DNA of 22,697 bases from a virus, in the IMG/VR virus record IMGVR_UViG_3300037245_000860, positions 1 through 22,697 of that record; one strand, given 5' to 3'. The notes under the pieces were generated by a model, which made no database searches, was not told the DNA's origin, and was given only the letters and a program-made list of their open reading frames with translations. Positions 3,577 through 22,289 of the stretch are shown here, one piece after another; the stretch's first letter is position 1; each line of letters opens with the position of its first letter. The translations under genes and the position numbers were made by a program.

Positions 3577-4515
3577 TTATGCGAAGCTAAATACACTGGG
3601 TGCCGTTGCCCATGCAGCCGCAGCAATCCAGTCACCATCGCCATCCTGAACAAGCGTGACACTTGAACCGACATCGTTGGCGTCAGCGTTAGTGATGGAA
3701 AGAACCTCGCCATCAGCACCCGCCGCAGTCCCGTTACCGAGCAGAATCTTGTTGCCAGTACCAGGATCGACTGTAATAGCCTGTACCTCCACGTTGACAA
3801 ACGTGAAAGTGGTTCCAGCCGAGATAACCGTCGGCAGTACAAATGCAGCAGTCGCACCAGCACCCTTGTTGACGAGTACCGAGCCACTATCCTTCGGGGT
3901 AAGCGTAGTGCTTGCCTCTGCATGGATATGCACCTGACGGGTCTTATCGGCCACAGCTACTTCAGCCAAGCGACCCCAGACCAAACCATCAGTACCAGAT
4001 CGGTCAACTGTTTCCTGAGCAATCGAAACGTGACGACTGTAATCGCCAGTGTTCGCCGTGAAGTTATCTTCACCAGACACGATAGACAGATGTGTCTCAC
4101 CGAGGATACAGGCAACGTCTGTCAGCATCGAGATCATTGCACCATTCGGAATGGCGATCTTGATCTTGTCGCCGTCAGCACCGGCCAAATCGCCGAGTGC
4201 CAGAACAGCACCAGCGAAGTTGTCGATGTTCGAGGCCGAAGGACGTTCGACGATAAAGATACGTCCGTCGTAAGTCTGTGCCCCTTCAGCGTAAGTTGTG
4301 GCCTTCGATGCGTTGTTGCTGGCTGCATTCGCGACGATGGGATTCACCGTACGCTCTTTGTAGTCACCAACGATGTCGGCGTTGTAACACACCGGCTGGC
4401 CCACCTTCACAACATCGGAAGGTGTAGCAGGACGAAAGTATACGTCCTTGATAAGAATCAGAGGGTCCGTGTCAGGCCCGACAGCACCCATCATTGCAAT
4501 AACATTTCCGCCCAT
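3577..4515 (-). CDS. Capsid accessory/decoration protein
   Basis: A 312-residue protein encoded directly after the probable major capsid gene. The first ~180 residues resemble capsid cement proteins in composition ('FRPATPSDVVKVGQPVCYNAD', many Ala and Gly). The last ~110 residues ('STTLTPKDSGSVLVNKGAG', 'AGTTFTFVNV', 'SSVTLVQDGDGDWIAAAAW') follow a C-terminal module I recall from phage surface proteins, with the pattern 'LT..DSG...V......FTLP..AG..FTFV...VGSSVTL...G.W'. The start is ATG 4515 with GAGAGGAAG seven bases upstream, rather than TTG 4536. The stop lies in a 6-bp hairpin (CTTCGC/GCGAAG, 3567-3586) that may protect or trim the mRNA end. Confidence 0.72.
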   Translation of the reverse strand: MGGNVIAMMGAVGPDTDPLILIKDVYFRPATPSDVVKVGQPVCYNADIVGDYKERTVNPIVANAASNNASKATTYAEGAQTYDGRIFIVERPSASNIDNFAGAVLALGDLAGADGDKIKIAIPNGAMISMLTDVACILGETHLSIVSGEDNFTANTGDYSRHVSIAQETVDRSGTDGLVWGRLAEVAVADKTRQVHIHAEASTTLTPKDSGSVLVNKGAGATAAFVLPTVISAGTTFTFVNVEVQAITVDPGTGNKILLGNGTAAGADGEVLSITNADANDVGSSVTLVQDGDGDWIAAAAWATAPSVFSFA

Positions 4516-4575
4516 AATACTTCCTCTCAAAAACAAAATAATCTTAACAAAATGAAATGTCTGTCTACCGCTAAC

Positions 4576-5661
4576 TTATGCAGCTTTGTGCATGACGAAG
4601 CCAGCTTCACGCAGATTCAGACACAGGTTGTTGTGGGCACCATCAAGGAAGACGGTGAACGTAGTATGCTGTCCACGGTCTGTCATGGGTTCGCCCTCTT
4701 CCATCCAGTAACCTTCATGGACGTAAGGAATAAACTTCGCGAAGTCGATACAATAGATCGGCGAGAAACCTGCACCGTTCAAGTTCGAGATCGGAACAAC
4801 AGGAAGCCGGTTAAGATACACCAGCCCAGTGTCATCCATCTTGATATTACCCAAGACGTCTTTGCCACTGTGGTTGTCGTCACGCTGGTCAGCCAAATCC
4901 TGAAGACGGGCGACGGTATCGAAGTCAGTGTAAACACGCTTCGCACCAACACGCTTGTCGGACGGGTCTTTGACGAACAGAGGAGCCTTGAACTTCGTGT
5001 ACATGAACGCCAGTCGGAAAGAACGCAACAGACTGTTGTTGATGTCACTGTACAGTGCGGCATAGTTACGCCACTTTGTTTCGACAGCACTGTCGATACC
5101 AGCACACAAGGTGCCGTCCGAGCCGTCCTGGTAGTCGATGGTCGCACCGACAAAACCAGACGATGTGTTGATCGCACCCGCTGCGTTCTTGAACTTCATG
5201 TAGTACGGAACGCCGTACGGATAGAGATCGTCGCTTGCATTCGTGGGTGTCTTCCACGCACGCTCTTCGACGAGATTCGCCAGGGACCACAAACCGTCGA
5301 TCCGGCGAAGCTTCATAAGACTGATGAAGCCCTTTGCAGAGTTCTTCTGCTGAAGAATTTCAAACTTCTCCCACGAATAGTTCGTTCCGATCTTAGTCCA
5401 GGGAACCTTGATCGTGTGAACAACGTCACCAACTGTGGGTGCGTCAGTATCGAAAGACCTGCGATACCTTGCGTTACCAGTATGGTCAAGCATAACCTTT
5501 CGCTCGATCTGAGTACCACCGTCGATAACCATACGCTCCTGCTGGTAAATCCGGCAGAACTCGTATTCGTTGTTATCCCAGCCTACCTCGAAAGTCTGGT
5601 TCGGCAGATCGTTGATAGTTGTCGCGATAAGATCAGCAAGATCGGCATCTTTCACGGCCAT
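4576..5661 (-). CDS. Probable major capsid protein
   Basis: A 361-residue protein in the canonical slot between the scaffold gene and the capsid accessory gene. It lacks membrane segments and catalytic motifs, and mixes helical and beta segments ('DLIATTINDLPNQTFEVGW', 'RMVIDGGTQIERKVMLDHTGNARY', 'FAKFIPYVHEGYWMEEGEPM'). Length and gene order fit an HK97-fold capsid subunit. The start is ATG at 5661 with GGAAGGAC seven bases upstream. The opposite strand carries a 588-codon open frame (3922-5688) that I regard as a codon-bias shadow. The assignment rests mainly on position and general character rather than a diagnostic motif. Confidence 0.8.
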   Translation of the reverse strand: MAVKDADLADLIATTINDLPNQTFEVGWDNNEYEFCRIYQQERMVIDGGTQIERKVMLDHTGNARYRRSFDTDAPTVGDVVHTIKVPWTKIGTNYSWEKFEILQQKNSAKGFISLMKLRRIDGLWSLANLVEERAWKTPTNASDDLYPYGVPYYMKFKNAAGAINTSSGFVGATIDYQDGSDGTLCAGIDSAVETKWRNYAALYSDINNSLLRSFRLAFMYTKFKAPLFVKDPSDKRVGAKRVYTDFDTVARLQDLADQRDDNHSGKDVLGNIKMDDTGLVYLNRLPVVPISNLNGAGFSPIYCIDFAKFIPYVHEGYWMEEGEPMTDRGQHTTFTVFLDGAHNNLCLNLREAGFVMHKAA

Positions 5662-5696
5662 AATTTTGTCCTTCCAAATAAGTTTTAGTTAGTGAT

Positions 5697-7338: not shown

Positions 7339-9155
7339 TAGTAAACACCTTGACCTTCCTGTCCTGCACCGCCCTGAGCAAATTGATTCGCCTCTTGCCC
7401 AGGTGACGCTATGTTTCGTTGCATGGGGAAACCCCCATTCTGCATTATGCCAGCTTGCGGGCCAGCCTTCTGTGTCGATCCGGTAGAGCCGTTTCCGGCA
7501 CCGCCTGACTTTCCAGCATGAAACTGTATGTACATCGCAAGCTTCTCTTGAAACTGCGGATCGTGGAATAGCTCCACCATCATGTCACCGATCTCAAGTT
7601 CCTCAGCGGCCATAGTAAGAGCGTGCTGTATGTTGAATGGTACACCAAGTTGCATCATCATCATGCCAGTATTCGCCAACGCCGGAACAGCATTAGTCAA
7701 GAACTCCATCATACGCTTAGATCGGACAGATGGGTCCATGCGTGTCATCGACTTTGCTTTGATCTTGTAGATATAGTCTTCGATGTCGCCACGCTTCTCT
7801 TCAGGAGTCAGGACCAACTGCTCAACTTCCATGCCTGGCTTCCTGCGTGCGAGAACTTCTTCGATCATTGGATCATGGTGCATGTACCACGCCATGTCGT
7901 GACTGATAGCAGCAGTGCCATCGTACAGAATGTCGCGTGCGTCTTCAATCGAGATCATCGCGTTAGACTGAAGTATGTTCGCCTGTGTCGCAGTCTCAGC
8001 AGCAGAGCTAACACCAGCTATCTGATCTGGGTTGCCCGACATATAGTTGAACCATATTTGCAACTGTGACAGCATAGCTTCGTTGCCACGGTTCTGACCA
8101 CCAAACGATACTACCTGTGCTGCCTTCGGATCGTCAGTAGCAACAGCCGCACCATTATCAGCATCGAGGATGTCTTGTGCGACGTCAGCATGAGACGGAC
8201 GGTACAACAACAAGTCTCTCTGGTCTTCAGCCTGGTCGAGAATCTTTGTGAACATTCTATTCGAGGCAATGTGAAGATCGTAATACAAACTCACCGGAGC
8301 AACCGGCATTGGGTTTCCTTCGACTGGGGGAGTAAAGCTCAAGAAGCGATACGGCCCAGTAGACGGCCCATAATAATCAGTGATGCCGAGGTACTTGTCA
8401 AACACGATCTCACGTGGATCGGGGATTGTAATCAAAGCTTCAGCCCCAGGAACCCACAACTCTACTACGTTGACCATGTCCTCAAGGTCTTTCATCTCGA
8501 AAGCACCAGCAGCGATCTGTGACATCTGCTCTGTACTTCTCTCACCATCAGCACTTGCCATCGTAGCAGACGGAAGCTTCATAGCGAGATCAGAGTCGTA
8601 CATGTCGTTGTCAAGGAAGAACCGCCTCGGTACACTTGTGGAGTCGCCAAGAAACGATGACTCTGTAATCTTGTTGCACAACGGGTCCATGACAAAACGA
8701 TCAAGATCAACTAAAGCAGCGTAAATGTCGCCCTGATCTATCAACTGATTGTCAATTAGTATACAGTTACCGTTGGCAGATATACCAGTCTTCATAATGC
8801 CCATGCTGAACATAGCAGACACGACCCACGCACGCAAAAGCTCTTTGAGATTTATACGCTGTGAAATCTTGTCCAGTGCCATCGACTGCATTTCGGCATA
8901 CTTCTTGAACTGTAGATTCTCAGTCGTTACTTCGTTGCGAGGATTCTTGCTAACGATTGCAGGAACTATCGAACGTATAGCAGAGTACAGCAAATTGATC
9001 GGCTGTTCTCCGGTGTAGCCAAATTGCTTGCGGTAGTACTGTCCGATGTACGCCTTTACAAACATGGCCCTGGCTCGTCGATACACTTTCATGCGATCAA
9101 ATCCGGCCTTCACCACACCCTGTATTTTTCTGGGGCTTACGTTTTCTGTAATCAT
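7338..9155 (-). CDS. Portal protein
   Basis: A 605-residue protein immediately downstream of the large terminase, with the length and character of a portal. It has a helical N-terminus ('FDRMKVYRRARAMFVKAYIGQYYRKQFGY'), a central 'HIASNRMFTKILDQAEDQRDLLLYRP' region, 'FNYMSGNPDQIAGVSSAAETATQANILQSNA' typical of the portal wing/stem region, and a Gly/Gln-rich flexible C-terminus (GKSGGAGNGSTGS ... GAGQEGQGVY). It would form the dodecameric ring at the packaging vertex, dock the terminase, and contact the adaptor. The start is ATG at 9155 with AGGACG six bases upstream; the stop overlaps the next start. Confidence 0.85.
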   Translation of the reverse strand: MITENVSPRKIQGVVKAGFDRMKVYRRARAMFVKAYIGQYYRKQFGYTGEQPINLLYSAIRSIVPAIVSKNPRNEVTTENLQFKKYAEMQSMALDKISQRINLKELLRAWVVSAMFSMGIMKTGISANGNCILIDNQLIDQGDIYAALVDLDRFVMDPLCNKITESSFLGDSTSVPRRFFLDNDMYDSDLAMKLPSATMASADGERSTEQMSQIAAGAFEMKDLEDMVNVVELWVPGAEALITIPDPREIVFDKYLGITDYYGPSTGPYRFLSFTPPVEGNPMPVAPVSLYYDLHIASNRMFTKILDQAEDQRDLLLYRPSHADVAQDILDADNGAAVATDDPKAAQVVSFGGQNRGNEAMLSQLQIWFNYMSGNPDQIAGVSSAAETATQANILQSNAMISIEDARDILYDGTAAISHDMAWYMHHDPMIEEVLARRKPGMEVEQLVLTPEEKRGDIEDYIYKIKAKSMTRMDPSVRSKRMMEFLTNAVPALANTGMMMMQLGVPFNIQHALTMAAEELEIGDMMVELFHDPQFQEKLAMYIQFHAGKSGGAGNGSTGSTQKAGPQAGIMQNGGFPMQRNIASPGQEANQFAQGGAGQEGQGVY

Positions 9156-9158
9156 AAG

Positions 9159-9992
9159 TTACGTCCTAAAATTATACTTTTGCTTCCGTGATCTCTTGTT
9201 CTTTTTCTTCTTCTTCGCGATAGCCTGTGCCATCCTGTGACCAGTAGAGTTCACTGGTGGCTTGATGTCTTCAGCCTTCTCAGCTAAAATCGTGGTCTTG
9301 CCCTCTTCGAGTGTCAGGGCATCAGCAATTACACAGTCACCATGAGTCTTACGTGCTGAAGAGTTCTCCTGCACAAGTTCAGCAGGCCCGATGTAACCAT
9401 CAGGAAAGTGAATGTAGTACAACGCTTCTTCAAGTGCGAAATCGGAATGATTGATGTAACCGCCGTGTGCCATAACGCGATCATACATCATCAACAGTTC
9501 ATTCTTCGACGTCGTATCAGAATGCCAGCCATACTTTTTCGTGTCGGTGTCAACTACCTGACCAGAGGTTTTCTTCCGGTAGTAATGCGGGTATTCAAAC
9601 TGTAGGACGATCATACGCCCGAAGTCCCACCCAGGCCCGTTCATCTCCCACTTCAACAGCGGCAGGCGGTGCGGCTGTTTACCACCACACCACAACGCAA
9701 GAGCCACGGCCACCCGTGAAAGTTCGTAAGGCGGCGTGTTGGCTCCTCTCCACTCTGCTATCTTCTCACCAGTCTCTCTGCACTTGACAGATAGAACTGA
9801 GTTCGACGCTCCCTGTCCTTTGCTGACGTCGATACCTATCCTATAGGACTTCGACTGGTCCGGCCTGCCCATCGCCAGATGACACCACACACGCAACTCG
9901 CCGTCACCCTTTTGCCTAATTTCAACGCAAGAGTGATCTCGCTGCTTGATGTAATCTCTGACAGACTCATTCGCTTCAAGTCGATTCTCCAT
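9159..9992 (-). CDS. terL: Large terminase, C-terminal nuclease part (separate frame)
   Basis: A 277-residue reading frame carrying the RNase-H-like headful/cos nuclease domain of a large terminase. It shows 'YRIGIDVSKGQG' with Asp55 as the first metal ligand, 'KWEMNGPG' with Glu116, and 'HGDCVIADAL' with Asp219 and Asp224. The C-terminus is very basic (KKKKKNKRSRKQK). The frame is open further upstream, from about 10031, reading YVRERTLEPMEN before the first ATG at 9992. That ATG has no convincing ribosome-binding site. The ATPase half is in the frame one base back (9836-11074), so the intact enzyme needs a -1 (or +2) shift near 10031-9995. Otherwise the two halves act as separate chains or an indel is present. 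Confidence 0.8.
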   Translation of the reverse strand: MENRLEANESVRDYIKQRDHSCVEIRQKGDGELRVWCHLAMGRPDQSKSYRIGIDVSKGQGASNSVLSVKCRETGEKIAEWRGANTPPYELSRVAVALALWCGGKQPHRLPLLKWEMNGPGWDFGRMIVLQFEYPHYYRKKTSGQVVDTDTKKYGWHSDTTSKNELLMMYDRVMAHGGYINHSDFALEEALYYIHFPDGYIGPAELVQENSSARKTHGDCVIADALTLEEGKTTILAEKAEDIKPPVNSTGHRMAQAIAKKKKKNKRSRKQKYNFRT

Positions 9993-11074
9993 CGGCTCAA
10001 GGGTTCGCTCGCGAACATAGCTCTGTGAATCTCAAAGTTCTGGATCGTAAAGAACGTATCGCCTGACTCGACATCCTGTGCGAGAACTTCCTGGGCGAGT
10101 TCTTTCGGGCCACGAACAGATTCTTCTATCTCAAACCACGGTGATCTAATCTCGTAACCACCGAGTTTTTTTTGTACGACGTGACGACCAGCACCCTTCT
10201 CAGGATGTTCCCAGAAGGGTAGTGCGAAAACTTTGATTTGTCCCGACTTCTTCCACTTGCTGTATTCAGTACCAGCACCGGCAGGAGTCGAGTTGATGAT
10301 ACGCATGAATGCCACGTCTCGCGTAGCTGATCGCATCTCTGCACCAAACTCAACTTTAGAAAACTCATCGAGCAACGCTACCAAACGTCTGTCACCCGAT
10401 CCAGCGTGCTTCGTGGTTGACTCGCCATCAATCGTGGCACCAGTCAAACAGTTGTGCATGTGCATCTTTGTTCTGTACTGATCCTTCGGCAAGCAATCAG
10501 GCGGGAGCATCCATTCGGGCAACCACTCGTTAATCTTGTCATGCTTCTGGAACAGTGCCTTGTGGTTTCCAGTCTGATCCACGTACTCTCGCGTACGCGA
10601 CATCTCAAGCAACTGTGGCCCCTTCGGATGAAACAGCCACAGCCAGTGCATGAAGATAACACAAATCCATGAAGCACCCATGTCACGACACTTCGTAACA
10701 AGGATGTCATGCGGTGCCTTCTTCAGTCTTTCTAAAAACTCGTTGAACAAGTCGTCCTGTATGTCCCATGTTAAGAACGGGACGTGAGGCGTCAGTGATT
10801 CTATTCTTTCACCAGTAAGCGGGTCAACGTCAAACTGGTGGTACGTCCATACAAACGCATTGGTGAAAAACAACAGTGACTCTGCACATGCAGCCAGCAG
10901 ATCAGCCTGAAGGATTGTATCATCCTCAGCTTCAATGAGAATCTTTTCCTTCCACTCTCTGTTCTCGTTCTCACGCTTAGGAAGGATCAACCCAGTCTTC
11001 GGGCACTTCCAGTATTGGTTCTCGCGTGGGAACGGTGTTGCGAGGTCAGGTCTGCATGTTTCCGTCAGTATCAT
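9836..11074 (-). CDS. terL: Large terminase, N-terminal ATPase part (frame-broken)
   Basis: A 412-codon frame encoding the DNA-packaging ATPase. It has a variant Walker A 'TKCRDMGASW' at residues 127-136, Walker B 'LVALLDEF' at 231-238 with catalytic Glu237, and the coupling motif 'NSTPAG' at 261-266. Homologous-looking sequence ends near residue 350 ('FTIQNFEIH'). The following ~60 residues look like out-of-frame reading, and the matching continuation is in the other frame. The joined protein would be about 635-640 residues, a usual size for this enzyme. The start at 11074 overlaps the small-terminase gene by 29 bases. An A8 run lies within codons for QKK at 10166-10173 but is too early to be the shift point. 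Confidence 0.85.
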   Translation of the reverse strand: MILTETCRPDLATPFPRENQYWKCPKTGLILPKRENENREWKEKILIEAEDDTILQADLLAACAESLLFFTNAFVWTYHQFDVDPLTGERIESLTPHVPFLTWDIQDDLFNEFLERLKKAPHDILVTKCRDMGASWICVIFMHWLWLFHPKGPQLLEMSRTREYVDQTGNHKALFQKHDKINEWLPEWMLPPDCLPKDQYRTKMHMHNCLTGATIDGESTTKHAGSGDRRLVALLDEFSKVEFGAEMRSATRDVAFMRIINSTPAGAGTEYSKWKKSGQIKVFALPFWEHPEKGAGRHVVQKKLGGYEIRSPWFEIEESVRGPKELAQEVLAQDVESGDTFFTIQNFEIHRAMFASEPLSRWRIDLKRMSLSEITSSSEITLALKLGKRVTASCVCGVIWRWAGRTSRSPIG

Positions 11075-11519
11075 TAGCCTTCACCATATCGTTAATTCGT
11101 TGCTTGTTCGCTTCAGACACCTTCTTCGGAAGAGTTCTCTTCTTCGCGTCACTGTCGTCAGTCGCGACTGCACGGCCTTCCATCCGGTCCCAGATCAAAG
11201 CGATCATGCCTTTGTCTGCACCAAAATAAACTGTCTTGCCAGTCTTTACATTGAACTCAGAATAGCCGAGTGCCATCTGAAACATTCGCCTGGCAAGAGC
11301 TTCAGCCTTCGTCATCAGGACTTCGCCATCTGGACCCGTCACGTTCTCAGTCTCTTCCTGTGCGATCTTACGCAAGAAAGATGAGAGTTGTCGGCCTGCA
11401 CGAATCTTATCGCCAGCCAGAGACGGGAGCTTCGGAAGCATCTGCTTCAACGCTTTCGGCGGGGCTGGAATCTTCTTCTCAGGTTTAGGCGGGGGTTTAG
11501 GTTTGTCGTCAGATGGCAT
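11046..11519 (-). CDS. terS: Probable small terminase subunit
   Basis: A 157-residue protein directly before and overlapping the large terminase. It has a Pro/Lys-rich N-terminus (PKPPPKPEKKIPAPPK) and a helical central part. The segment 'LMTKAEALARRMFQMALGYS' followed by 'KGMIALIWDRMEGRAV' matches a pattern I recall from small terminases and terminase-associated proteins ('TKAEALA...W..A......A...I.DR.EGK'). It would recognise the packaging site and load the large subunit. The start is ATG 11519, overlapping the upstream stop by 11 bases, with AAGGAAGG upstream. Confidence 0.68.
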   Translation of the reverse strand: MPSDDKPKPPPKPEKKIPAPPKALKQMLPKLPSLAGDKIRAGRQLSSFLRKIAQEETENVTGPDGEVLMTKAEALARRMFQMALGYSEFNVKTGKTVYFGADKGMIALIWDRMEGRAVATDDSDAKKRTLPKKVSEANKQRINDMVKANDTDGNMQT

Positions 11520-11958
11520 GAGCCTTCCTTCCGTTCAGTATTTCTATCTGATCTCTGTAGTACTCCATCGTACTGTCAACCCACTCAGGAGTTATCAAGC
11601 GTTCCTCTTCACTCAGTTCGATCAACCGCATAATTTCTGTTATACCATATTTCTTGTCCATGAATCGGAAGTACTTGACCCACTCACCCTGTCGCTGTAT
11701 GTTGCAACGATAGCACTGTGCATGAACGCACGTCGGCTCAAATAGGATCGAGTCTTTACGGCCAGGGATGAAGTGACCAGCTTGCAGTTTCCCGAAAGGG
11801 TACAAGCGACCACATGTACAGCATTTCCCTTGCGTGATAGTACCAGTCGTCGCAAGACAATCGCGTGTACGTATGTAAACAGAAAAGACCGGCCACAACT
11901 TCTTCTTCTTAGAAGTCACGGTCGGCGTTTTCTTTTTAGTTTTTTTAGCTGCGGGCAT
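11509..11958 (-). CDS. ninG: NinG-like zinc endonuclease/recombination protein
   Basis: A 149-residue protein with a Lys-rich N-terminus (AAKKTKKKTPTVTSKKKK) followed by a core matching the lambda NinG/Rap family: 'CCTCGRLYPFGKLQAGHFIPGR' at residues 46-67 and 'CVHAQCYRCN' at 77-86. Cys47/Cys49, His62, Cys77, His79, Cys82 and Cys85 are plausible zinc ligands or active-site residues. NinG (Rap) resolves branched DNA during recombination. Here it sits in the late strand just before the terminases, where clearing branches from concatemers before packaging would make sense. I chose ATG 11958 with GGAAAG upstream over a more distal start at 12006. Confidence 0.82.
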   Translation of the reverse strand: MPAAKKTKKKTPTVTSKKKKLWPVFSVYIRTRDCLATTGTITQGKCCTCGRLYPFGKLQAGHFIPGRKDSILFEPTCVHAQCYRCNIQRQGEWVKYFRFMDKKYGITEIMRLIELSEEERLITPEWVDSTMEYYRDQIEILNGRKAHAI

Positions 11959-12115
11959 ATTTTTCTTTCCAGTATTCTCTCTCTCGACGTGTGGCCTCAA
12001 CATCAAACTTCAAGTAGAGGACCGCAACACGAAACTCTGCGACCTTTTCACAAAGCTTTCCGATTACTGTTTGCATCTCAGCACTTGTTAGTTGTTTTTT
12101 CTTTTTCTCATCCAT
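11945..12115 (-). CDS. Small helical charged protein
   Basis: A 56-residue protein (starts MDEKKKKQLTSAEMQ, ends REYWKEKYARS), predicted to be one long helix or coiled coil. It overlaps the NinG start by 14 bases, which supports real translation. The ribosome-binding site is weak (GACGGAATGGTGCG before ATG 12115). Function unknown. Confidence 0.65.
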   Translation of the reverse strand: MDEKKKKQLTSAEMQTVIGKLCEKVAEFRVAVLYLKFDVEATRREREYWKEKYARS

Positions 12116-14892: not shown

Positions 14893-15223
14893 CTTCCGAC
14901 ACCCCCAATTTTCTCAGTTGGCCGTTGAGCATCTCTTTGATCTGGTAGATCGCACAAATCGCTCGGCCACGGATCAGTGACTTCAGTGCTTTGCGGTCAG
15001 CTTGCAGGTGAAAAATTTCCTTGCCGTGAATCTCGAAGTTGCACCTGGCCTCAACGATGGCAGCAAACTGGACGTCCATACATCGCTCGCTGATCTGGAT
15101 AATCTCAGCCGATCTTAGCACATCTGAATCACGGGCGTCAGCTTCTTCTCGCTGGCAGTCCTTCAGCAGTTGCAGCATTTCCAGTTTGCTCAGCATCCGC
15201 TTCTGTGTGTTGTCTTTATTCAT
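14879..15223 (-). CDS. Hypothetical helical protein
   Basis: A 114-residue, almost entirely helical protein (MNKDNTQKRMLSKLEMLQLL at the start; EIIQISERCMDVQFAAIVEARCNFEIHGKEIFHLQADRK in the middle). I chose ATG 15223, preceded by GAGGTTGACC and overlapping the upstream stop by eight bases. No catalytic motif is seen. It is the second gene of the leftward operon. Confidence 0.76.
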   Translation of the reverse strand: MNKDNTQKRMLSKLEMLQLLKDCQREEADARDSDVLRSAEIIQISERCMDVQFAAIVEARCNFEIHGKEIFHLQADRKALKSLIRGRAICAIYQIKEMLNGQLRKLGVSEDDLY

Positions 15224-15404
15224 GGTCAACCTCTTTAGGAATTATGATCGAGAAGCTCTTCATGTTGCCTGCTCTGTTGACTTTCCCGATTATGGCCTCA
15301 TAGTCATTTTCGCGAATCTTCACTCGCACGCTGTGTCCCTTGAGATCAGGTATCGCGTTCACAACCGCTGTCGCTGCTCCCATGACCTCACCTATATTTA
15401 CCAT
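15216..15404 (-). CDS. First gene of the leftward operon, hypothetical
   Basis: A 62-residue protein (starts MVNIGEVMGAATAVVNA; then VRVKIRENDYEAIIGKV) with a probable N-terminal helix and a small beta domain. The ribosome-binding site is AGAGGG, six bases from ATG 15404, within the AACCTTGTTG leader. The conserved 41-nt promoter-like element ends 59 bases upstream, so this is the promoter-proximal gene of the structural operon. Function unknown. Confidence 0.75.
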   Translation of the reverse strand: MVNIGEVMGAATAVVNAIPDLKGHSVRVKIRENDYEAIIGKVNRAGNMKSFSIIIPKEVDHE

Positions 15405-15462
15405 AATTCCCTCTACTTCCCCAACAAGGTTCCCGATATAGAAGAGTCCCGAATAAAACCCT

Positions 15463-15503
15463 ACCCCTCCACTAATACTGGCTCAAACCACAAGATTGAA
15501 AGG
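15463..15503 (-). promoter_or_regulatory. Putative phage-specific late promoter (copy 1)
   Basis: On the minus strand: CCTTTCAA, 14 bases, then CCAGTATTAGTGGAGGGGT. A second copy with identical spacing lies at 21837-21877. Read as a promoter it gives -35 TTTCAA, an 18-base spacer and -10 TATTAG. Upstream are A/T tracts (GAAAATTTTC palindrome at 15522-15531 and a T8 run) that could act as an UP element. It faces the structural operon. Confidence 0.65.
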
Positions 15504-15840
15504 AAATCGAAAAAAAATCTCGAAAATTTTCTCATATATATGCACTTTCCTACATAGGATATGGGTCTAAAATAGGAAATACCACGATATCAGCCCAATA
15601 ACGCCGGTTTCGCGGATTTGCCAGAAAAAATTCTAAAAAATTGTACGTTCTAAGAAGGGTATATTCCAGTATAGCTTCGAGCAAGTCGAAGGGTACTACC
15701 CCCAGGTCCGATAATAGCGGGGATAGGCGACATTGACCATCTATAGCGTGTTGTGTGACCGATAAAAACAGCGTTTGTGGCTCGCTATGCGTGTTTTCAT
15801 GGTGATACCATACTAACGCACATAACCACATAGCTTGCAC

Positions 15841-16177
15841 TGTGTCGGTGTGTCGGTCAGTGTCAAGTGGAAATATGATGTAAACCCTTATGACATAAGG
15901 ACTTACGCTGCCGTGTCGCTGTGTCGGTATAAAACCGAAACCGTGCTATATAAGAATAGATAAACACAAACACAGAACACACAAACACACATAATAACAT
16001 AATACTATCATATAACCTATTTAACAAACCATCGACACAATAACAGTATATATTACTCTAAGTACTTATCAATAAAGGAGTTATGTCTGTGTCGCACTGT
16101 GTCGCAACTATGATAACACCCCAAAAACAGCGATAATGCGACACAAACACCGACACAGAATACAAAACAGCGACACA
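15841..16177. repeat. TGTGTCG repeat cluster (candidate origin or operator array)
   Basis: The heptamer TGTGTCG occurs at 15841, 15849, 15920, 16088 and 16098, with a near copy (CGTGTCG) at 15912. Its reverse complement CGACACA occurs at 16033, 16139, 16151 and 16171. Several copies are extended by G or C (TGTGTCGG and TGTGTCGC forms). Between the left and right groups lies a very A/C-rich segment with few G. Direct and inverted iterons beside an easily melted tract are typical of origins; operators for a phage regulator are the alternative. Confidence 0.6.
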
Positions 16178-16298
16178 AACCCCAGCCTTTTATCGTTAGT
16201 CAAGCAATCGGAAACAATCGCAACGTCGTTTTTAACATAGATATCGCTTGTCTATATATTGAACGTGAAAACAATTTGCTCATTCTTTGAGAATATAT

Positions 16299-16327
16299 TT
16301 GACTTGTGTTCTGCTATGTGGTATACT
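16299..16327 (+). promoter_or_regulatory. Strong sigma70-type early promoter
   Basis: TTGACT (16299-16304), a 17-base spacer, then TATACT (16322-16327), with TGG directly before the -10 forming an extended -10 (TGGTATACT). It points into the small-gene region, with the predicted start near 16334. Confidence 0.85.
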
Positions 16328-16381
16328 GTGTTTGTTGATTGAAGTTATTTGACAAGTTCATAGCGTCGGAAAGGGGAAAAC

Positions 16382-16393
16382 ATGAAGTACTAA
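16382..16393 (+). CDS. Three-codon leader minigene (possible)
   Basis: ATG AAG TAC TAA (Met-Lys-Tyr-stop) follows a strong ribosome-binding site (GGAAAGGGG) about 50 bases after the predicted transcript start. It comes just before a large hairpin. It could be a leader peptide, a minigene that ties up tRNA, or simply a ribosome entry point. Length alone cannot prove use. Confidence 0.3.
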   Translation: MKY

Positions 16394-16451
16394 ACAACAG
16401 TCTATTATAGCACATTCGGCGGTTTGGGTGTGCTATGATAATTTGTTGTTT
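16392..16451 (+). promoter_or_regulatory. Two-part leader hairpin 1
   Basis: Outer stem AAACAAC/GTTGTTT (16392-16398 with 16445-16451) and inner stem ATAGCACA/TGTGCTAT (16407-16414 with 16429-16436, 14-nt loop) are separated by an internal loop of eight bases on each side. The downstream arm is T-rich. It lies between the minigene and the first real gene, a typical attenuator or processing-site position. Two related hairpins follow downstream. Confidence 0.6.
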
Positions 16452-16469
16452 ATGATGAAAGGTTTGACC

Positions 16470-16619
16470 ATGAAGACTGGGATTAAACTTAGCAAAACGC
16501 AATCAAAAGAATATGGTGTCAAATACGCCGATACTCTTAGACGATTGCATACTTGCACACCTTCAGAGAATGCCGGATTGAAAAAGCTTTTGAACTATTA
16601 TTATAACTTGTTGAATTAA
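16470..16619 (+). CDS. Hypothetical small early protein
   Basis: A 49-residue basic protein (starts MKTGIKLSKTQSKEYGVKY, ends LKKLLNYYYNLLN). The start ATG 16470 is set by the repeated leader GAAAGGTTTGACCATG; an upstream in-frame ATG at 16428 falls inside the leader hairpin and is unlikely. It is the first gene after the early promoter, a position often used for host-takeover proteins, but function is unknown. Confidence 0.68.
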   Translation: MKTGIKLSKTQSKEYGVKYADTLRRLHTCTPSENAGLKKLLNYYYNLLN

Positions 16620-21595: not shown

Positions 21596-21825
21596 GTGTG
21601 AAAATGCGTAAGTGGCTGGCGACAAGACCAGCGAGCAGAACAGACTGGGCATATATTCTGAAGGATGCGTGCTGGAAACCGATCAAATCGCACCGGACTG
21701 TCACACGGGGCAAGAAAAAAGGCTGGATCGAAGTGACGTTATTCCATCCTGAAGGGCGAAAACGGATCGTGCCAGCAGAAGCTTGCCGATTCGCAGAAAT
21801 AAAAACCGACGAAAATTCAAAATAG
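21592..21825 (+). CDS. Hypothetical basic protein
   Basis: A 77-residue basic protein (KMRKWLATRPASRTDWAYIL; 'HRTVTRGKKKGWIEVTLFHPEGRKRIV') that could be a small beta-barrel nucleic-acid binder by composition. It starts in an ATGA overlap with the upstream gene. It ends 12 bases before the copy-2 promoter element, so it is the last gene of the second early transcript. Confidence 0.72.
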   Translation: MSVKMRKWLATRPASRTDWAYILKDACWKPIKSHRTVTRGKKKGWIEVTLFHPEGRKRIVPAEACRFAEIKTDENSK

Positions 21826-21836
21826 TTTTCCAAAAA

Positions 21837-21877
21837 CCTTTCAAAAGTATGCAGATCGCCAGTACTATTGGAGGGGT
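21837..21877 (+). promoter_or_regulatory. Putative phage-specific promoter (copy 2)
   Basis: CCTTTCAA, 14 bases, then CCAGTACTATTGGAGGGGT. It matches the minus-strand copy at 15463-15503 at 29 of 41 positions with no gap, including 8/8 and 17/19 in the two conserved blocks. A/T tracts (GAAAATT, TTTTC) lie upstream in both. It ends 35 bases before the start of the HTH gene. Confidence 0.65.
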
Positions 21878-21911
21878 GTGTTATTTGGGTAATTTGAAAA
21901 GAGAGATAATT

Positions 21912-22289
21912 ATGAAGACAAGAAAAATTTCAGAGAAACAAGAGATGGCAATCAGGTTACGTTCTGGTGAGCTTGATGGTTTATCGGCTGAAGAGGCAGC
22001 AGCGAAAATGGGCATATCACAGCAGGCGTTGACTGGTTTGTTGCGACGGGCAGAGATAGCAGTTCCCGAACTCTTCCCACTGCTCACGAAGCAAGAGGCT
22101 GAGGTCATGGAGCTTGAGGACATCGACGGCATGAACGGTGTGCAGATCGCTGACACGCTGTTCCTGAGTCCACAGCGAGTCAGCCAGATCGTCAGGAGTA
22201 TTGCTAAGAAGCGTGGCGACAGAAACAAACCTGTAGTCATGGAGCATTATGAATCGCACATGGATTCAAAAGTTGTGGAGAGTTTCTAA
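21912..22289 (+). CDS. Double-HTH regulator, sigma-region-4-like
   Basis: A 125-residue protein with two helix-turn-helix-like segments. The first, at about residues 26-48, is SAEEAAAKMGISQQALTGLL. The second, at about 75-104, includes MNGVQIADTLFLSPQRVSQI, preceded by LTKQEAEVMELEDID, the pattern of sigma70 region 4 or LuxR-type DNA-binding domains. The start ATG 21912 has GAGAGA upstream; a longer frame from 21783 runs through the promoter element and is rejected. Lying directly behind one copy of an element that also precedes the structural operon, it is a plausible activator or sigma-like factor for that promoter class, possibly autoregulated. Confidence 0.75.
   Translation: MKTRKISEKQEMAIRLRSGELDGLSAEEAAAKMGISQQALTGLLRRAEIAVPELFPLLTKQEAEVMELEDIDGMNGVQIADTLFLSPQRVSQIVRSIAKKRGDRNKPVVMEHYESHMDSKVVESF

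Follow-up and report, generated by a model that had tools for sequence, protein, structure and literature searches.

Does the cluster of short repeats lying between the divergent late and early operons of a viral sequence serve to start replication or to control transcription? We addressed this question for the 22,697 nt of IMG/VR record IMGVR_UViG_3300037245_000860 (the window, probably an incomplete fragment), in which copies of the heptamer TGTGTCG crowd into positions 15841-16177. The original prediction, that the cluster is an origin of replication or an operator array, is upheld, and the comparative architecture favours an origin over a pure operator array, because the repeats form two iteron sets, enclose an AT-rich gap and are accompanied by palindromes, while related phages carry a gene family of self-loading initiators and the window is devoid of DnaA boxes. 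The cluster quite probably serves a tailed phage as its main origin of replication. By analogy, it is best read as a DnaA-independent origin built like those of phage-inducible chromosomal islands and Staphylococcus aureus pathogenicity islands (PICIs/SaPIs) and of P4.

A two-sided heptamer cluster

Nine exact copies of TGTGTCG were counted within 15841-16177, and a near-copy, CGTGTCG at 15912, forms the tenth repeat of the array, in agreement with the predicted ten or so copies in both orientations within about 340 bases. With flanks included, most TGTGTCG copies read YTGTGTCGS. The repeats and the gap that separates them are as follows.

15841-15847, + strand: iteron TGTGTCG, left set (exact count and shuffles)
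15849-15855, + strand: iteron TGTGTCG, left set, 8 bp downstream of the preceding copy (exact count and shuffles)
15912-15918, + strand: near-iteron CGTGTCG (found in the shuffle analysis)
15920-15926, + strand: iteron TGTGTCG, inward-facing, left edge of the central gap (count and iteron map)
15927-16032, no strand: iteron-free AT-rich central gap, candidate melting region (iteron maps)
16033-16039, - strand: iteron TGTGTCG, inward-facing, right edge of the central gap (count and iteron map)
16088-16094, + strand: iteron TGTGTCG, right set (exact count and shuffles)
16098-16104, + strand: iteron TGTGTCG, right set (exact count and shuffles)
16139-16145, - strand: iteron TGTGTCG, right set (exact count and shuffles)
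16151-16157, - strand: iteron TGTGTCG, right set (exact count and shuffles)
16171-16177, - strand: iteron TGTGTCG, right set (exact count and shuffles)

The whole window (22.7 kb) contains 15 copies versus 4.4 expected, the six outside the cluster being isolated singles dispersed over the window. A count across the entire sequence, which had been set beforehand as a check, thus proved uneven (9 of 15 in 337 bp), and the cluster does not have the spread over several promoters that marks an operator array of the stoperator type. Using dinucleotide-preserving shuffles, we asked how many non-overlapping copies of any one 7-mer could gather in 337 bp; the maximum was 5, whether the whole window (400 shuffles) or the local 1 kb (3,000 shuffles) was shuffled, as compared with 9 observed, and the claim of a density beyond chance was therefore confirmed over 3,400 shuffles. 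Although CA/TG dinucleotides are abundant in the region, a chance or low-complexity artefact is ruled out by these shuffles and further contradicted by the layout kept among relatives, such that we attach practically no weight to it.

The repeats had also been predicted to flank an A/C-rich, G-poor stretch. Two sets do lie around this stretch (approximately 15957-16000), but they are not a simple tandem run of iterons. The stretch falls inside the central gap, which measures 106 bp, is 72% AT versus a contig mean of 53%, and is more AT-rich than 99.7% of contig windows of its length. The innermost iterons face inward across it.

Related phages share the layout but not the repeat

A search with the window terminase returned 47 IMG/VR loci and an alignment-based search 80; the terminase was also present on one contig binned in a Pseudomonadota metagenome-assembled genome, an assignment that may be a binning error. 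No relatives were recovered via the tail-chaperone-like and DUF7178 proteins of the window. A homologous control region, devoid of TGTGTCG, was found in approximately 30 IMG/VR phages with the same terminase, many of which have a repeat of their own in its stead, and a set of late genes is conserved between them and the window; we regard the window and its relatives as an undescribed bacterial-virus group. Whole contigs were read for 13 relatives.

TGTGTCG was clustered in none of the first 47 terminase loci, several of which had clusters of other repeats at a distance of 3-6 kb upstream of the terminase. The relatives' repeats were taken around each member's best match to a palindrome (described below), an anchor chosen independently of the repeats themselves. 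By this means we found TTAGTTAT eight times in G001, GTGTGCTAT four times in G002, TGTTCTATA ten times in G007, TTCTATGC five times in G013, CCTATGTT eight times in G031, TCTAGTAGA five times in G033 and GTCTAGG 11 times in G036. Iteron maps gave TGTCCCG/A in G004 and TGTCCAG/T in G006, with nine copies of each. The repeat GTCTGGGTA, with 4-8 copies across members, occurs six times in G011 and G012 and eight times in G039, and further member-specific repeats at the same locus are GTCTAGGTA (nine copies), TGTTCTATG and GGCCTATGT (six copies). For the top repeats of G001, G002, G007, G011-G013, G031, G033, G036 and G039, Poisson log10 p values, uncorrected for how many words were tried, ranged from about -10 to -26. 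Judged by their spelling, the member repeats resemble variant forms of a single ancestral site near TGTCTATA, and in most relatives they are confined to one locus. Heptamers of another kind, CCGATAA/TATCGGA, are frequent in G001 (L048, L049; 16-22 copies) and other relatives, with several copies beside control elements.

Across 11 members, the central gap measured 98-114 bp in seven (among them G001, 110; G004, 114; G006, 110; G007, 112; G013, 107; and G036, 98 bp), 159-166 bp in three (G011, G039 and G031) and 246 bp in one (G002). Its AT content exceeded the contig mean in every one of the 11, and the iterons at its borders faced inward in seven.

A primase-helicase as candidate initiator

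Long relatives encode a family-A polymerase and a primase-helicase of 747-781 aa that matches Pfam DUF5906, Pox_D5 and D5_N above cut-offs. The primase-helicase was present in all longer relatives searched with the exception of the 24- and 27-kb records G040 and G041, and its gene was not found in the window. In G001 it is a protein of 754 aa (7827-10091), encoded together with the family-A polymerase, a PD-(D/E)XK exonuclease and a Sak4-like protein. The closest solved sequence was PDB 7ola (E 1.3e-13), which we take to be the SaPI5 primase-helicase. SaPI5 Rep belongs to this domain group (PMC7581432).

The C-terminal 80 or so residues are the least conserved part of the protein, far below the core. 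For the relatives, AlphaFold2 predicted a C-terminal winged helix (predicted local distance difference test score 85-95 over model residues 81-165), the best PDB match of which was the RFX DNA-binding domain (E 1.2e-3; template modelling score 0.82 on target); matches to viral structures include primases and superfamily 3 helicases. The entry 1KA8, presumably the structure of the P4 domain, was not among the Foldseek matches listed. One winged-helix family includes both the RFX1 domain and the origin-binding domain of P4, and both resemble one viral primase-helicase tail (PMC10516667).

In 11 members, iteron similarity rose with identity of the C-terminal domain (rho 0.52, permutation p 0.001) but not with that of the helicase core (rho 0.15, p 0.17). 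G011, G038 and G039, which have the same iteron, show C-terminal identities of 86-92%, and G036, with a one-letter change in its iteron, shows 65-67%. These sequence comparisons are suggestive of a link between iteron and C-terminal domain, and the modelled C-terminal winged helix of the primase-helicase is likely to be the reader of the repeats.

A conserved palindrome among the iterons

An imperfect 27-bp palindrome with a consensus near TAAGTCCTTATGnnATAAGGAGTTA, absent from the original prediction, is located among the repeats. The two copies in the window are interleaved with the heptamers.

15880-15906, + strand: palindrome 1, GTAAACCCTTATGACATAAGGACTTAC, the contig's best match (leave-one-out score 28.2)
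16058-16084, + strand: palindrome 2, CTAAGTACTTATCAATAAAGGAGTTAT, 178 bp from palindrome 1 (leave-one-out scan)

Scoring matrices excluded the member being tested, and the seeds were read by eye from eight members; because of this choice of seeds, it is the held-out members (G005, G009, G031-G033, G035-G037, L012, L117, L133 and L142) that carry weight. In most members, including those outside the training set, the contig's best site fell inside the region, the best sites of G034, G008, G010 and G004 being elsewhere. Of 21 members, 12 have a second palindrome at a distance of 164-200 bp, the usual spacing being approximately 180 bp. The palindrome is kept across the group while the spelling of the iteron varies by virus.

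The exact pattern, with some 20 specified bases, was present in 19 IMG/VR stretches versus fewer than one expected by chance (our own estimate). Five unrelated viral contigs (G017, G018, G024, G025 and G029; L083, L084, L091, L092 and L098) contain 13-21 palindromes each, many of them arranged in tandem pairs with a spacing of exactly 53 bp and a GC-rich spacer, and some fold into long attC-like hairpins. We rejected the notion that they are canonical integron attC sites, as the R-box consensus does not fit and no Phage_integrase was found on the array contigs. Likewise, the palindrome is not a motif widespread in the chromosomes of the apparent host phylum: allowing one mismatch, we found it in 0 of 398 Pseudomonadota genomes. 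A blastn search of annotated phages and plasmids gave no match, the 33-nt query being near the limit of sensitivity, and literature searches for the palindrome returned unrelated papers only.

Since the palindrome recurs in unrelated contigs, its binder is probably common to several lineages, although no single protein common to the window family and those contigs emerged. Most of the unrelated contigs lack the primase-helicase, making this protein an unlikely reader of the palindrome. As unrelated phages carry the palindrome in other settings, it may have a regulatory role, and its binder may act in regulation. We tentatively put forward a two-part replicator, in which a palindrome factor shared across unrelated phage lineages would be combined with fast-changing iterons that confer initiator specificity; the palindrome would then be an undescribed phage element, deployed elsewhere as intergenic tandem pairs with 53-bp spacing.

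Gene setting of the control region

As predicted, the array sits in the sole large non-coding gap of the window (approximately 15405 to 16470), which is interrupted only by an unconserved 96-aa open reading frame (ORF; 15550-15840, - strand). The operons on its two sides are indeed divergent, with late genes running leftward and early genes rightward.

15216-15404, - strand: putative first late-side ORF, 62 aa, no homologue found among relatives
16299-16327, + strand: sigma-70-like early promoter TTGACT-17-TATACT, the second hexamer preceded by TG; lies beyond the array (consensus match only)
16470-16619, + strand: first early gene, 49 aa, homologues in G002 and G003

Directly before the first early gene is a 24-bp inverted repeat (16391-16452), the arms of which contain extended -10-like TGTGCTAT(A/G)AT on both strands. 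On the late side, GGGTACTACCC occurs as a single copy at 15691-15701, adjoined by TTCGA and GTCCGATAATA, and is found in about ten members; it is a candidate packaging site or late operator. A conserved early protein (21783-22289, + strand) has two tandem sigma-70 region-4-like helix-turn-helix motifs and is a possible regulator or palindrome binder.

The large terminase subunit, a single ORF of approximately 640 aa in relatives, is split in the window into overlapping frames (9836-11074 and 9159-9992, - strand) by a frame change near 9976-9990, which reflects either a sequencing error or a real lesion. A NinG/Rap-like junction endonuclease (11509-12006, - strand) adjoins the terminase genes. 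A 588-aa open frame (3922-5688, + strand) lies antisense to a conserved 361-aa presumed capsid gene (4576-5661, - strand) and is probably a codon-bias shadow. The window yielded no Rfam match and no tRNA, and neither its portal-sized protein nor its control region had a homologue in annotated phages.

Origin of replication versus other functions

Cumulative GC skew had been named as a check, and its minimum falls at this region both in the window, where the skew changes sign at the array between the late and early operons, and in relatives with the region in one piece; in the longest contigs, the maximum lies roughly half a genome away. Because the coding strand changes at this very position and skew is also shaped by the direction of the genes, this pattern cannot separate replication from transcription. 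The DnaA box TTWTNCACA had no match in the whole window. If the cluster is an origin, a phage-encoded, self-loading primase-helicase of the D5/P4-alpha-like type would bind the iterons via its C-terminal winged helix and assemble as oligomers on both iteron sides, the AT-rich gap of approximately 106 bp in the window would melt, and two forks would depart in opposite directions, with a second factor bound to the palindromes.

In addition to the confounded skew, several findings weigh against this interpretation. Repeats were absent or weak in G003, G005, G008, G009, G010, G032, G034, G037 and some others, and some of the repeat-poor contigs end close to the control region. In G001, the primase-helicase gene lies approximately 17 kb from the array (approximately 27154-27630). 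The covariation of iteron and C-terminal domain fell to p 0.047 without G038 and G039, and to p 0.20 when G036 was also removed, whilst G001 and G002 have near-identical recognition helices and yet different iterons. The last two findings would fit a variant of the origin interpretation in which a small early protein or host factor reads the iterons and the primase-helicase is merely recruited, covariation being weak outside one clade. Such a variant is conceivable but rather unlikely, as SaPI Rep, SCCmec Cch2 and P4 alpha all use the C-terminal domain (PMC7581432, PMC4234260) and no other protein was found to diverge in step with the iterons, the others having been tested less thoroughly.

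The many-copy intergenic palindromes of unrelated contigs look regulatory, and they also speak for an operator array, in which heptamers and palindromes would bind a repressor or activator switching early and late transcription while replication starts elsewhere. The location between divergent operons, the sigma-70-like promoters near or inside the region and the family protein with two sigma-70 region-4-like motifs are consistent with such a switch. Nonetheless, 120 bp separate the best early promoter (16299-16327) from the array, the family has retained the two-sided arrangement with an AT-rich gap in the middle, and members' iterons are concentrated at one locus rather than at several promoters, leading us to consider this explanation unlikely. 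Far less probable still is that the palindromes are sites for a recombinase or terminase, that is, a recombination or packaging site. Their 9-bp arms and 7-bp variable centre resemble tyrosine-recombinase core sites, and some exact copies in other contigs adjoin tRNA or tmRNA ends; however, no Phage_integrase was found in 11 family members, the interleaving of palindromes with iterons has an origin-like geometry, and the single-copy GGGTACTACCC element (15691) is the better packaging-site candidate.

Comparison with known replication origins

Iteron plasmid origins likewise combine short repeats with an AT-rich melting region (PMC4980987). Unlike those DnaA-dependent origins, the window has no DnaA boxes, its repeats occupy both strands and form one set to the left and one to the right of the AT-rich stretch, and no plasmid-type Rep was identified among the proteins scanned.

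P4 differs from the present phages in being a satellite, and its second origin element, crr, has no counterpart that we could find here. Its origin repeats are bound by the C-terminal winged-helix domain of a multifunctional primase-helicase (PMC4234260). D5-type helicase domains are present in relatives of the window only, in which a C-terminal winged helix is also predicted, and the predicted fold is RFX-like, as reported for the P4 domain (PMC10516667).

In PICI origins, an AT-rich region invariably lies between two sets of iterons (PMC6092414), the arrangement found here, and in both cases the iteron sequence varies between elements (PMC6092414, PMC7581432). A D5-type primase-helicase, in the relatives closest to 7ola among solved structures, is a further likeness. 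The C-terminal domain recognises the iterons in SaPI Rep and reads iterons or origin repeats in SCCmec Cch2 and P4 alpha (PMC7581432, PMC4234260); the same role may apply here. If the cluster is indeed the main origin of a tailed-phage group, this layout would no longer be exclusive to the elements in which it was described, pointing to common ancestry or replicon exchange between phages and satellites. The family would also offer a natural series in which some ten iteron types diverge within a single conserved frame and have initiator sequences to match, useful for working out the joint evolution of initiator and origin specificity. In contrast to PICIs/SaPIs, which integrate and are satellites without structural genes of their own, the window belongs to a phage with a terminase and structural genes, with no Phage_integrase found in its family. 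PICI origins adjoin the initiator gene, immediately downstream of rep, whereas the candidate origin described here separates the early operon from the late one, is distant from the primase-helicase gene (as seen in G001) and has an extra conserved pair of 27-bp palindromes approximately 180 bp apart. Owing to its own structural genes, distant initiator gene and extra palindromes, the label of PICI origin is not justified, although by analogy the origin would function like one.
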